Positions 20,780-25,471 of a stretch of 40,387 bases of DNA are shown here, piece after piece; the first letter of the stretch is position 1, and every line of letters starts with the position of its first letter. Source of the DNA: Granulosicoccus sp. (GTDB lineage: Bacteria > Pseudomonadota > Gammaproteobacteria > Granulosicoccales > Granulosicoccaceae); the NCBI GenBank assembly GCA_023300375.1, contig JALZWO010000106.1:1-40387 (forward strand), given 5' to 3'. The position numbers and the translations under genes were made by a program. The notes under the pieces were generated by a model, which had not been told where the DNA came from, did not search any database, and was given only the letters and a program-made list of their open reading frames with translations.

Positions 20780-20911
20780 AGCTCAATATACACTGCAAAC
20801 AGCACACATCGTTACGACACACATTATTGCGGCGAATAATTGACAGCTTACGCCAAACTCACGTTAGAATTGAATCACCGCCCTTTGCGGACTACTTGTG
20901 TATCCAGAAAC

Positions 20912-22564
20912 ATGCTGCGACATAAAAAACGGCGCTTGCCGGAACTGGCTTTTTTGCTAAAACGACGGCCAAAAACCAAGAATATACCAATGGTATTGCT
21001 GCTTCTCACAGCGGCGGCTGGCTTTACAAGCCAACCTGCGATCTCTGAAGACCTGTTTGAAGATATCGGTGCAAGTGCACAAATTGCCATAACTCGTATT
21101 TGCCAGCCTCTACAGTTTTTCAAGTCTAGCCAGGCCTATCGCGCCTGCTTGCTTCAACAGTTAAAAAACATCAACCCATCAGCAGAACCATTTTTCCGTC
21201 AACTAGCCTCACTCAATGCCGAACAGGGTACAGCCCAGAACACCGCAGCATCGACGTCTTCTGCACAAACACAAACAACAGCACCCAGTGAGAGCAATGC
21301 GGCAACGACCACTGAGCCTGCCACTTTACCGGCGCAACCCTCTCAGCTAGAGCCCTCAAGCACACCTAACCCCAATACCACCAATGATCTCGCCAAGCTC
21401 AGCACCACCGTTAGTGAAGCAATAGCGCCATGGCTAGAGAAAATTCCAGGAAAACCATTAAGTTTAGTGCTGCTCCCCCTAGCTCTACTTATCCTCCTGC
21501 TCACGGCCATTGCACTACGATTAAGACGCAAAGCATCCGCTAGGAAACGCGTCAAAATAGCCGAGGCAAAGGCTACATTCCAATTACGGCCAGATCCAGC
21601 TGGCAAACCTGCCAAACCCAATACAGGAACTGCTACCCGTGCAACGGGCACTAGCCATCAGGAATCACCTAATCAACCTCGTCACCCGCACGACAACACA
21701 GAAACTACTAACGATACGGGTGTCAGTACAGGTGTCAGTACGGGTGCAAGCAAAGGAGTCATTGCAAGTGCAGAAGCAGAGACCGTTGCAGTTGCCAACA
21801 CAACCACGCCTTCGCAAAATCAGGTAAGCGAGTCAGAACTAGCGATTTTTGAAACATCGCGCCATGGGTTTGAAAACTGGTTAAGCAGCGCCACACCGCA
21901 AAGACGGCGTGAGATGTGCTCAGAGCTTTTCATTCTCACTATGGCTTATACCGATAACCGTTTCGACCCTGAATTGAAAAAACGAATCTTCAAAACCAAA
22001 GAGCGTGACGCCAACACGTTGATAAAACGCTGGGCATTCAAACATGATAGCCAAGCTCTAGCCTACGCGATCCGTGTCTTTCAAACCGACACCAATAAAG
22101 ACCAACGCAGCCAGTTTATCGATCTACTCATGGCCTTGTTGGTTACCGAAAAGGCCCTAACGCCCGTCCAAAACAATTTCCTCAGATTCTTGTCAGATGC
22201 CTTCGGTATGGGTCGGGAGCAATTGGAACGCCAATACCTCAGAGCATTCGGCGAACAAATGCCCAGCATGCCCAGACCTGACAAACTCACTTGGTGGGAA
22301 CCCATTGACGAAGAAACCCTGTTCCGTTGGGATGCTCAGTCAGTGGCTCTACAACCGACAAAAATTCGCTATCTTGTACTTTTGGGCCTTCCGCTGCAAG
22401 GTAAGCTCGACCAAGAGTCTATGCTTGCCAACTATCGACGAGCCGTTGGCCGCTGTCATCGCGAGCGCGTCAATCAATTGGGCGAATTCGAGCAAGAATT
22501 GCTTACTACTCGACGCAAGCAATTCGAACTGGCTCGTGATGCACTGATGGAGATAACTGCGTGA
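20912..22564 (+). CDS. Membrane-anchored protein with TerB-like and degenerate J-like C-terminus
   Basis: A 550-residue protein. A basic N-terminus and hydrophobic segment (about 27-45) are followed by a small periplasmic part with SEDLFEDIGASAQIAI, a Thr/Ala/Ser/Pro-rich linker, one membrane helix (about 183-204) and a cytosolic half. Residues about 315-435 are helical and resemble TerB/DjlA domains (SQFIDLLMALLVTEKALTP). Residues 485-550 resemble a J domain (LVLLGLPLQ; ANYRRAVGRCHRERV) in which the HPD motif is His516-Arg-Glu. DjlA, a membrane co-chaperone of DnaK, has the same TM-TerB-J order. Without HPD, DnaK stimulation is not expected. An upstream ATG at 20840 is less likely. The next gene overlaps by 4 nt. 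Confidence 0.75.
   Translation: MLRHKKRRLPELAFLLKRRPKTKNIPMVLLLLTAAAGFTSQPAISEDLFEDIGASAQIAITRICQPLQFFKSSQAYRACLLQQLKNINPSAEPFFRQLASLNAEQGTAQNTAASTSSAQTQTTAPSESNAATTTEPATLPAQPSQLEPSSTPNPNTTNDLAKLSTTVSEAIAPWLEKIPGKPLSLVLLPLALLILLLTAIALRLRRKASARKRVKIAEAKATFQLRPDPAGKPAKPNTGTATRATGTSHQESPNQPRHPHDNTETTNDTGVSTGVSTGASKGVIASAEAETVAVANTTTPSQNQVSESELAIFETSRHGFENWLSSATPQRRREMCSELFILTMAYTDNRFDPELKKRIFKTKERDANTLIKRWAFKHDSQALAYAIRVFQTDTNKDQRSQFIDLLMALLVTEKALTPVQNNFLRFLSDAFGMGREQLERQYLRAFGEQMPSMPRPDKLTWWEPIDEETLFRWDAQSVALQPTKIRYLVLLGLPLQGKLDQESMLANYRRAVGRCHRERVNQLGEFEQELLTTRRKQFELARDALMEITA
21716..21751 (+). repeat. Three 12-bp tandem units in the linker
   Basis: Units ACGGGTGTCAGT, ACAGGTGTCAGT and the diverged ACGGGTGCAAGC encode a TGVS-type repeat in the cytosolic linker of the TerB/J-like protein. 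Changes in copy number would stay in frame. Confidence 0.6.
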
Positions 22565-22908
22565 GAAATTATTTCAAGGCACTGAATATTTCAAGTGCAG
22601 CGAAACGTGAGGAGATTGCTCACGCACTGCGCCCTAATTCAGATGTAACCCATTCATTGAGTGAAAAACACCTATCGGACGCTCAAGAAATTCTGATGCA
22701 CGATAAGCGGAGGCAGGTATACACCAACAACGTTAATTTTTTCCAGACTCTACACGAGGCGAAACACTGCCTCGCAACTCCGTTCGCTGTGGATACCCAT
22801 CAATGGGATTATCGCCTTGAAGAGTTCGATTGCTCCGAACACGAATCGCATGCCAATCTGAGCGATGTAGAGCCGAATAGTGATGTCGAAATACCAAAGC
22901 AACTCTAA
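22561..22908 (+). CDS. Small degenerate J-domain-like protein, 115 aa
   Basis: A 115-residue cytosolic protein starting at a GTG that overlaps the TGA of the previous gene (GTGA), so translation is coupled. The N-terminus NYFKALNISSAAKREEIAHAL follows helix I of a J domain (Y-x-x-L-x-x-x-x-x-A-x-x-x-E-I). DAQEILMHDKRRQVYTNN follows helix IV (A-x-x-x-L-x-D-x-x-x-R-x-x-Y). The helix II-III part with HPD is shortened and lacks the motif. The C-terminal 50 residues are acidic and unrecognised. It is probably a partner of the membrane protein encoded upstream. Confidence 0.65.
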   Translation: MRNYFKALNISSAAKREEIAHALRPNSDVTHSLSEKHLSDAQEILMHDKRRQVYTNNVNFFQTLHEAKHCLATPFAVDTHQWDYRLEEFDCSEHESHANLSDVEPNSDVEIPKQL

Positions 22909-22945: not shown

Positions 22946-23527
22946 CTACTGGTAATCTTGGGGCGAATGTCTTTGGCAGTGTAATTCTGTAGCCTTTGTA
23001 CTCATTGCTGAGCCAAATAGCGAAAATGCCGAATCGGCAACGGTTGTTTGAGTATCAGCAGATTGTACATTTTCGGTGAGTACACGAACGCGCACCGTTG
23101 ATGATACGTCCAGTTTTTCGCGCAATGCAATCAATTTATCGGCAGGGGCAGCAATCGAGTAAACCTGCTTGTCGCCATTGGTGTCGCGGAAACCATTATA
23201 AATGAATGGTTCTGAACCCAGATACACCTCTATTGACAGAACGCTGTCCTCATCCAAATCATCAGCAGGCACAAGCACGCTTAGCATGGGCACACACTTA
23301 AACCGGGGGATAAAGGAGATAGACAAGGCAGAACCTGCTGTATCAAGCGGCGACGATTGAGCGGAATACTCAAAGAGCTTGGAACCGTCCCTCAACTCAA
23401 CAGATTCTACAAAGCCTGCCCAATCTCTAAACGAAGCGTCTGGCAATGCTTCTGCAATCAGTATCCGAGGCAAGGCTATGAGCAACCATCCAGTCACGAC
23501 CCATGGATACGCTACTGCGACTTTCAT
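22946..23527 (-). CDS. Exported hypothetical protein, 193 aa
   Basis: I do not recognise this family. The first 25 residues (VAYPWVVTGWLLIALPRILIA) look like a signal peptide with cleavage near AEA. The mature part has beta-rich text (SALSISFIPRFKCVPMLSVL; VLSIEVYLGSEPFIYNGFRD), two Cys and no membrane segment, so it is likely periplasmic. It is convergent with the J-like pair (37 bp apart) and diverges from the coiled-coil gene at 23767. No motif points to enzymatic activity. Confidence 0.6.
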   Translation of the reverse strand: MKVAVAYPWVVTGWLLIALPRILIAEALPDASFRDWAGFVESVELRDGSKLFEYSAQSSPLDTAGSALSISFIPRFKCVPMLSVLVPADDLDEDSVLSIEVYLGSEPFIYNGFRDTNGDKQVYSIAAPADKLIALREKLDVSSTVRVRVLTENVQSADTQTTVADSAFSLFGSAMSTKATELHCQRHSPQDYQ

Positions 23528-23766: not shown

Positions 23767-24984
23767 ATGACTTTGGTTCTCGTTAACTACATTTTTCCAG
23801 CGCTGGTTGGGTACTTACTATTCACCGGCATCTCTGGTCTGCTAAATCCACTGAATCCCTCGCAGCATGAGGTAGACAGGGCGTCCTGGCGCCTAGGCAT
23901 CTGGGCCGGTCTTTGCGTCGGACTCGTGCTGGGTGTGGCCATCTACATGACCACAAAAGCCCCCATCAACAGTGTGTTAGTCACCATCCGCCCTCTACTT
24001 GTGCTGCTTGTCTGTTTATTGGCACCTGCGCTTTATCTGCATATTTCAAATCGCTCCCGCAAAAAACGCCATCAAATGGCAGCTGGCAGATTTGACTGGG
24101 CGTTAAGCGAAGACAATCTGCAGCAAGCATCCGGACTTGACGTCGATGTGGCTGCACAACGTCCGCTAGATCCCCCAGTCCAGCAGAAACCTGAGCCTGC
24201 CTCCGAGGTCGGTCTGGCCTATCTGGAAACGGTTGATATGAGTCAGCTGACTCATGATTCAACCCAAGAAGCAGTAAATGACTCCAACACCACATCGGCT
24301 TATTTTGAACAACCGCCTCAGCACGATAATGTCGAGCTCGAGAAAAAGCTCCTTGCGGAAACTGAGACCCGAATAGAAACAGAAAAACATTTACGCATCA
24401 CTCGCAAAGCGCTATCCATTCTCGAAGTGAGCACCCGAGACATGCCAGAAGACTCTTCAGAATTAGTCATAGAGCTTGAGGAGTCGCTTGCCAAATCTCT
24501 GGAAAACACAGCCTCTCTGGAGGCCAAAGTTATCTCGTCACAAACCTATAGGATGAAACTCGAGCAAAAAAGCATCAGCATAAAACAACGCTTGGTGTCT
24601 GCTAAAACTGAAATTCGACGCAGCGCCGCAGCCAGAGCCAAAGCCCTTGGAACTGCTAACAAGTCAATCGCGTTTGCTCGCCAATCGGTGAAGATACGGG
24701 AGCGCTTAGAGAACGAGTTAGACGATGCTCAAACCACACTGAAAAACCAACAGAAAACCATTAGCAGTCTAATTCGTGCCCTGGAAAAGGAGAAAAACAG
24801 GACACAGGAAGAAATCTCTTCAACGGCTCGGCAACTTGTGCTTCATGAAAAGCAAGTTCGCACCAGACGCTCGGTGGAAGCTGTTGCACGTAGTGTGGAA
24901 AACAACCTAGCTACCCGATTAGTCAAAAAAGTAGCGAAGGCTCGGCCATTGATTTCTGATGTGAATCACGGTGAGCCAAGCTAA
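23767..24984 (+). CDS. Membrane-anchored coiled-coil protein, 405 aa
   Basis: I do not recognise the family. Three hydrophobic segments (about 4-26, 42-61 and 70-93) anchor the protein. A basic stretch (NRSRKKRH) follows, predicting the rest to be cytosolic. Residues about 100-185 are an acidic, Gln/Asp/Pro-containing linker. Residues about 187-375 are rich in Lys, Glu, Gln and Ala with heptad-like leucine spacing (ELEKKLLAETETRIETEKH; RERLENELDDAQTTL), a long coiled coil. Its design recalls cell-pole or division-site organisers, but no such homology is evident. It stands alone between two oppositely oriented unknown genes, and a 13-bp perfect hairpin follows it. Confidence 0.65.
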   Translation: MTLVLVNYIFPALVGYLLFTGISGLLNPLNPSQHEVDRASWRLGIWAGLCVGLVLGVAIYMTTKAPINSVLVTIRPLLVLLVCLLAPALYLHISNRSRKKRHQMAAGRFDWALSEDNLQQASGLDVDVAAQRPLDPPVQQKPEPASEVGLAYLETVDMSQLTHDSTQEAVNDSNTTSAYFEQPPQHDNVELEKKLLAETETRIETEKHLRITRKALSILEVSTRDMPEDSSELVIELEESLAKSLENTASLEAKVISSQTYRMKLEQKSISIKQRLVSAKTEIRRSAAARAKALGTANKSIAFARQSVKIRERLENELDDAQTTLKNQQKTISSLIRALEKEKNRTQEEISSTARQLVLHEKQVRTRRSVEAVARSVENNLATRLVKKVAKARPLISDVNHGEPS

Positions 24985-25065: not shown

Positions 25066-25329
25066 CTAACTTTCTGTAGAACCGAAATCGATCACGCGAG
25101 CACGGTATCTTGGGCCAAGACTATCGAGATGTCTCCTCTGGTCATCAGTAGCAACGCGAAAGCTGTTTCTAGCTTTGCGCTGCATACTCAGCATACTCCA
25201 CACAGCGAACAGATACACCCCGAGAAGAGCAAGCAATATGTGTACGCCCTGCGCGGTCAACAGTGTAACTACCCCTGAGAACAACACCATACAAATCGTG
25301 ATAATTCCCATGACTTGGTACGGGTTCAT
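25066..25329 (-). CDS. Small two-helix membrane protein, 87 aa
   Basis: An 87-residue protein with two hydrophobic helices (about 7-27 and 31-50; GIITICMVLFSGVVTLL and HILLALLGVYLFAVW), followed by a basic, hydrophilic tail (QRKARNSFRVATDDQRRHLD) likely in the cytosol. I do not recognise it. I chose the ATG at 25329 because AGGTGA stands just upstream; a start at 25389 would add 20 residues without a ribosome binding site. The 142-bp gap to the gene at 25472 has no clear content. Confidence 0.5.
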   Translation of the reverse strand: MNPYQVMGIITICMVLFSGVVTLLTAQGVHILLALLGVYLFAVWSMLSMQRKARNSFRVATDDQRRHLDSLGPRYRARVIDFGSTES

Positions 25330-25471
25330 GGCTTCACCTACGTTGTGACAATTGGTAACAAATATACCCATCAAAGCAGAGTAGCGCAAGCACGCCTTAA
25401 CACAAGTAACACTATGACTTCTATATTAAAAACTTTCCAAAATTTAATGTCTTGTTTAAGTTTGAATCGCA

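Follow-up and report, generated by a model that had tools for sequence, protein, structure and literature searches.

Two overlapping genes of a Granulosicoccus sp., here called A and B, encode products that look like J-domain proteins, whose J domain normally switches on the chaperone Hsp70, and neither product carries the HPD motif. Are such genes relics of a co-chaperone on the way to loss, or are they parts of a conserved device, and, in the second case, what might two J-like domains do together at a membrane? Both genes lie in the window, i.e., the whole stretch of 40,387 nucleotides that was analyzed.

Domain structure of the two products

A first-pass annotation of this DNA had described a coupled pair joined by a GTGA overlap, with HRE in place of HPD in the first product. 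Reading frames and positions agree with that description (Table 1), and an in-frame TTG at 20840 is a possible alternative start of gene A.

Table 1. Positions of genes A and B and of their recognizable parts in the window
Feature	Position	Strand	Basis
Gene A, membrane-anchored TerB-like/J-like protein, 550 aa	20912..22564	+	ORF, ATG 20912
Hydrophobic N-terminal segment of A, residues about 25-45	20984..21046	+	By eye, below hydropathy cut-off
Paired-Cys repeat of A, single copy, C64-x14-C79, residues about 48-88	21053..21175	+	Sequence
TM segment of A, residues 183-201, then basic stretch	21458..21514	+	Hydropathy 2.82
TerB-like helical domain of A, residues about 321-446	21872..22249	+	Model, 2h5n match, Pfam TerB in relatives
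J-like domain of A, helices I-III, residues about 483-549	22358..22558	+	Model, fold matches, PDB profile search
HRE where HPD is expected in A, residues 516-518	22457..22465	+	Sequence, alignment
GTGA start/stop overlap, couples A and B	22561..22564	+	Sequence
Gene B, HPD-less J-like protein, 115 aa	22561..22908	+	ORF from GTG 22561
J-like domain of B, residues about 1-62	22561..22746	+	Alignment, model, fold match, profile
Conserved motif DTHQWDYRLEEF C-terminal to J-like domain of B	22792..22827	+	Alignment

The TM helix previously assigned to A was recovered by hydropathy as one strong segment, and at least one TM segment is present in A in 25 of 28 rows from the window's family, the remaining three being cut by contig ends. 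The more N-terminal hydrophobic segment exceeds the hydropathy cut-off in 16 of 28 rows of this family and appears signal-anchor-like, a function suggested by its sequence. The paired-Cys region is predicted from topology to be periplasmic. It had been described as a small periplasmic part, which is true of the window, with its one Cys-pair copy, but not of most relatives, in which the region before the TM segment is longer and holds up to four stretches with two Cys residues about 10 to 18 residues apart. No Pfam domain was found in the Cys-repeat region at E values up to 1 in the two full-length A relatives scanned. The link to the envelope proposed earlier is plausible, and the Cys-repeat region might, at a guess, be a disulfide-stapled sensor. 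In three genomes (loci L053, L054, and L057) the contig ends within an (AEA)n repeat inside gene A; a tandem repeat in the coding sequence probably interrupted the assembly there.

A TerB-like region and a C-terminal J-like segment had also been recognized in A, and both are supported by the model, by fold matches, and by Pfam matches in relatives. Domains were settled by profiles and models, single-sequence Pfam and NCBIfam scans being too weak: the products of the window, taken alone, both fall under the Pfam cut-off. A single-sequence scan of A gave a weak TerB match (E = 0.088), and neither DnaJ nor TerB was among the Pfam matches of full-length A alone at E values up to 10. Among the 27 A rows of the window's family, an HMM search of the kind proposed with the first-pass annotation matched TerB in eight (best, 1.1e-4) and DnaJ in nine (best, 6.1e-5) at E values up to 1, and a PDB profile search with A reached HscB (E = 0.0016). 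For A, the C-terminal 243 aa were modeled with a pLDDT of 91. The top structural match of this model is 6jmg (xRbj; Z 6.1, rmsd 2.5 over 75). Two further matches share a Z of 5.2: 2h5n, which we take to be TerB-like in fold (rmsd 4.7 over 107), and 4it5, the J domain of the co-chaperone HscB (rmsd 2.3 over 65). Lower matches, such as ferritin/Dps, were mostly generic helical bundles and were excluded as evidence.

B had been thought to keep J helices I and IV and to have lost the HPD loop. This holds, and in addition helix III and a shortened helix II are retained, only the HPD stretch being absent. The model of B (pLDDT 83) matches J domains, the best being CbpA (3ucs_C; Z 6.0, rmsd 2.4 over 60). 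Structure prediction of each protein, another of the checks proposed earlier, thus found the J fold in both A and B, with matches that are modest (Z 5 to 6). Sequence homology is consistent with the fold. The window's B matches Pfam DnaJ, although below the curated cut-off (E = 0.0037), DnaJ is matched by 7 of 27 B rows of the family at E values up to 1, and a B profile with relatives from both families described below finds solved J domains at 9.5e-7. In NCBIfam, B has a weak match to the cold-adaptation J protein family NF050028 (E = 0.025; 15.1 of 150 bits). B, like A, therefore combines a J fold with J-domain sequence homology (PF00226), but HPD, which is expected of J-domain proteins, is replaced by HRE in A and missing with its loop in B, so both are termed J-like rather than J.

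Beyond its J-like domain, B carries a conserved motif whose family form is D-[TS]-[HN]-x-W-xx-R-[LV]-x-E-F, with exceptions. W82, R85, E88, and F89 are invariant in the 27 rows of the window's family, and W and F are invariant across 31 rows drawn from this family and the second one. Such conservation points to a possible binding motif.

Linkage of A and B in two families

Relatives of A were found in 28 of the 57 genomes searched, the window's own included; these were 28 of the 36 genomes inside the window's family and none of the 21 elsewhere. A Granulosicoccus assembly carries an A-relative locus that is 79% identical. A precedes B in all 28 loci; B is complete in 27 and is cut by a contig end in the 28th. 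The 4-base overlap is found in 26 of the 27 loci with a complete B, and in the remaining locus B begins 35 bases on. Counts of 27 for A arise from the omission from the A alignments of locus L076, which holds only the last 56 codons of A. When 22 genomes of the same genus (own included) were searched with both profiles, 20 had both genes, 2 had neither, and none had one alone.

Comparison with the nearest relative (G008) gave a dN of 0.12 and a dS of 1.6 for A (C-terminal 243 codons) and a dN of 0.12 and a dS of 2.1 for B (first 100 codons). Within A, dN/dS is about 0.08 over the J-like part and 0.07 over the TerB part, and the ratio of B is about 0.06; these values indicate purifying selection on both genes, neither of which is decaying. 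The pair is a conserved module and not a local accident.

Three further genes accompany the pair in most loci of the window's family: 22946-23527 (-) in 23 of 28, 23767-24984 (+) in 25 of 28, and 25066-25389 (-) in 23 of 28. The product of the second has hydrophobic segments at its start and a coiled-coil look. No NCBIfam match was found for the first or second product at E values up to 0.01, and these conserved neighbors gave no clue to the function of the pair.

A second gammaproteobacterial family, f171, also has the pair. Among the matches listed for the B profile in 369 genomes of the class, three members of the window's family scored 1e-26 to 1e-30, and the next was an outlier from f171 (G397) at 4.7e-7, ahead of ordinary J proteins. 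The B of this outlier (P0003, 143 aa) is J-like, lacks HPD, and has a C-terminal hydrophobic segment; it lies directly downstream of an A (P0004) of 337 aa with a TerB-like part and an HPD-bearing J domain. P0003-type B was recognized in 34 of 58 relatives of the outlier, all of the same genus, with 2 of the 34 matches short. In the 30 f171 loci read, B was recognized by its start in 29 and an upstream A in 27, and all 27 A proteins have HPD. Across 151 f171 genomes, 82 have both genes and none has one alone; in all 82, A is the immediate upstream neighbor of B on the same strand. The B match starts at or inside the end of A in 34 of the 82, and gaps between A and B reach 198 bases, so the argument from translational coupling is weaker in f171. 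A survey of whether the two genes always occur together had been suggested previously, and wherever this could be tested the answer is yes. Such co-occurrence and adjacency establish functional linkage, not binding.

Profile comparisons between the two families indicate that A and B are each homologous across them. The B profiles align with a probability of 97.4 and an E value of 1.1e-11 over 85 columns, part of which is owed to the common J fold; the HPD stretch is absent in both, and the match extends past the J domain through the common W and F. The A profiles align with a probability of 98.1 and an E value of 7.9e-14 over 214 columns. The families differ in the partner that carries the membrane segment. 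By hydropathy, a TM segment is found in A in 25 of 28 rows of the window's family versus 0 of 18 in f171, and in B in 0 of 27 rows versus 24 of 24. One partner per pair is thus predicted to be anchored, A in the window's family and B in f171. A single anchor per pair, on either partner, is what would be expected if A and B form one membrane complex, and this is the main inference drawn from the comparison.

Among the matches listed for 369 genomes of the class, 398 of the phylum, and 292 of the class (overlapping draws), no HPD-less B was found outside the two families. Most other strong B-profile matches span about 12 to 14 more codons than profile positions and lie in frames of DnaJ or CbpA size; most non-family matches were judged by this span, a measure by which very divergent members could be missed. 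A few matches with a short span or a very long frame (e.g., G211 and G085) in the 369-genome scan fall outside the loci read. The combined B profile, run over the fetched loci (27 plus 27 at most), returned HPD-bearing or partial J matches only, except for the f171 outlier.

HPD state and helix II charge

Conservation of HPD loss, which the first-pass annotation had raised as a further point to survey, was found for B and not for A. HPD is absent from B in 27 of 27 aligned rows of the window's family, and this absence is common to both families in all rows read. HPD is present in A in 8 of 27 aligned rows of the window's family, the others reading HRE, EHE, NPE, NPA, RAE, HPE, and other variants. 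In f171, one locus per genus (14 of 16 loci fetched, 14 genera) gave HPD in 14 of 14 A proteins and in no B, and all 18 aligned A rows have both HPD and a basic helix II. The f171 A also matches the NCBIfam DjlA model (E = 3.1e-9; 36.8 of 162 bits). On the tree of A, the HPD label requires three changes, two of them forced by well-supported branches, and more losses are needed if HPD was never regained. Loss of HPD from A, as read from these sequences, is lineage-specific and has probably been repeated. The HRE of the window as a simple local mutation was ruled out by the alignment, tree, and selection data.

The basic region of helix II in known J domains contacts DnaK and docks on it. Over the 12 residues of helix II that precede the motif, the mean net charge of A is +4.0 in the 8 HPD rows versus +1.3 in the 19 others (rank test, P about 8e-5, relatedness ignored). 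The window's own A, at +3 and with three basic residues kept, is among the less eroded rows. The helix II region of B is negative on average in both families. With HPD absent from A and from B, no HPD-driven stimulation of DnaK is expected from either product in the window's genome, which agrees with the first-pass annotation.

Known systems and possible roles

Pam18 (J) and Pam16 (J-like) form a pair in the mitochondrial import motor (PMC5773037, PMC2695266), and Pam16 lowers the activity of Pam18 (PMC2695266). Like Pam18/Tim14 and Pam16/Tim16, A and B are two J-type proteins, one HPD-less, with membrane anchoring and an Hsp70-system partner. In Trypanosoma brucei, TbPam18 also lacks HPD, and TbPam18/TbPam16 serve mitochondrial DNA replication (PMC11349236); the window's branch is similar in that both J domains are HPD-less. 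Unlike the mitochondrial pair, A and B are bacterial, are encoded by neighboring genes, have a TerB-like domain in A and an anchor on either partner, and are known from sequence linkage. No Pfam match of the window's B to the Pam16 family was found at E values up to 10, nor was Pam16 among the 21 Pfam families matched by any of the 27 B rows at E values up to 1. Pam16 was also not among the chains listed for the B model, a listing that does not exclude likeness to Pam16. The A/B pair therefore resembles Pam18/Pam16 by predicted anatomy and is not a member of that family, and bacteria seem to have evolved it separately from the import-motor pair. A literature search found no other bacterial J/J-like pair and no HPD-less J partner in bacteria beyond ZipN in the accessible text, with subscription papers and preprints poorly covered.

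On balance, and with little better than even confidence, we regard A and B as two subunits of a membrane-tethered J/J-like module akin to Pam18/Pam16. B would bind A, most likely with its J-like domain against the J domain and with help from the conserved W...EF motif, and would position and restrain the J domain of A at the inner membrane in the way that Pam16 acts on Pam18. On this view the f171 pair would serve DnaK as a regulated co-chaperone. In the window's branch, where A has also lost HPD together with some of the basic patch of helix II, the pair may act as a scaffold or regulator that itself no longer stimulates DnaK, and the paired-Cys region of A, predicted to be periplasmic, might supply an input from the envelope. 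As both J domains are HPD-less in this branch, as in TbPam18/TbPam16, its direct drive on DnaK is probably gone. A fuller version, which is tentative and which we consider somewhat likelier to be wrong than right, is that of an independent bacterial Pam18/Pam16-like heterodimer whose anchor switched between lineages, the Granulosicoccus pair having moved off Hsp70 control to become a redox- or envelope-linked regulator.

B could instead be a dedicated antagonist that covers the J domain of A in competition with DnaK until a signal releases it. The precedent is CbpM, whose gene follows cbpA in the same operon and whose acidic patch binds the basic helix II/HPD face (PMC4063869); A and B likewise comprise a J-type protein and a small downstream operon partner, the helix II region of B is acidic on average in both families, and Pam16 similarly lowers Pam18 activity (PMC2695266). 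CbpM resembles MerR regulators and not J domains (PMC4063869), whereas B has a J fold. B has also been kept although the 19 of 27 A rows without HPD leave little to antagonize, and the anchor swap suggests a stable complex, not a releasable inhibitor, so we consider this reading unlikely. Those same 19 rows, in which helix II charge is lower as well, fit the possibility that both J-like domains are plain interaction scaffolds unrelated to DnaK, in a module that localizes or senses at the envelope. ZipN and ARC6 offer a parallel as membrane-linked J-like domains thought to be Hsp70-independent; ZipN has its J-like domain at the membrane, although the paper calls the J-like assignment unclear (PMC6391411). 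ZipN/ARC6 is, unlike A/B, a single FtsZ-tethering protein for which no paired J-like partner is described in the accessible text (PMC6391411), and f171 A, with HPD in 14 of 14 loci and HPD and a basic helix II in 18 of 18 rows, has a DnaK-type J domain. A pair of pure scaffolds is accordingly also improbable.

A short AtcJ-type J-protein network, in which the C-terminal motif of the small protein binds an operon partner, would account for the conserved motif after the J part of B and for its weak NCBIfam match (E = 0.025). The last 21 residues of AtcJ bind AtcC (PMC6715715), and B is likewise short and of J type, has a C-terminal motif, and has a partner in its operon. B has no HPD, unlike AtcJ, whose J domain is functional (PMC6715715), its score of 15.1 of 150 bits lies far below the NF050028 cut-off, and the operon differs, all of which makes this network very unlikely. 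Least credible is decay, in which A and B would be former DjlA-like co-chaperone genes heading for loss. The absence of HPD from both products here would agree with it, but dN/dS is about 0.06 to 0.08 on both genes, the pair is conserved through the family, and HPD is absent from B in every row read.

For the membrane-tethered J/J-like module favored here, natural versions with and without HPD would offer a direct way to ask how a dead J domain serves a live one and whether the pair can persist once its Hsp70 role has gone. For comparisons of this kind there are many near-complete f171 genomes.

The first-pass annotation had interpreted the products as degenerate relatives of DjlA that act as a J-like adaptor. 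The pairing with a J-type partner stands, as linkage, but A is not simply a degenerate DjlA: relatives keep HPD, and the window's genome has a separate canonical DjlA-type gene with HPD (L003). E. coli DjlA has the order TM-TerB-J (PMC11709261; see also PMC10754441 and PMC8215388). A has the same order in the window and differs in the added periplasmic Cys-repeat region, the HPD loss, and the constant neighbor B; f171 A, unlike DjlA, has no TM segment. A as a DjlA orthologue was ruled out by the separate HPD-bearing gene and by its own HRE.

The window's genome also encodes DnaJ. With DnaJ and other J proteins present, DnaK could work without A, which is an additional protein. In one further J-domain protein, of about 280 aa (L002:1468-2307 [G000:C233]), HPD is preceded by an unusual insertion (KLKHHPDK), and the C-terminal part looks PilZ-like by eye. 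Another J protein, of 205 aa (L004:1453-2067 [G000:C1]), has HPD and a single C-terminal hydrophobic segment and is probably, from its sequence, also membrane tethered.
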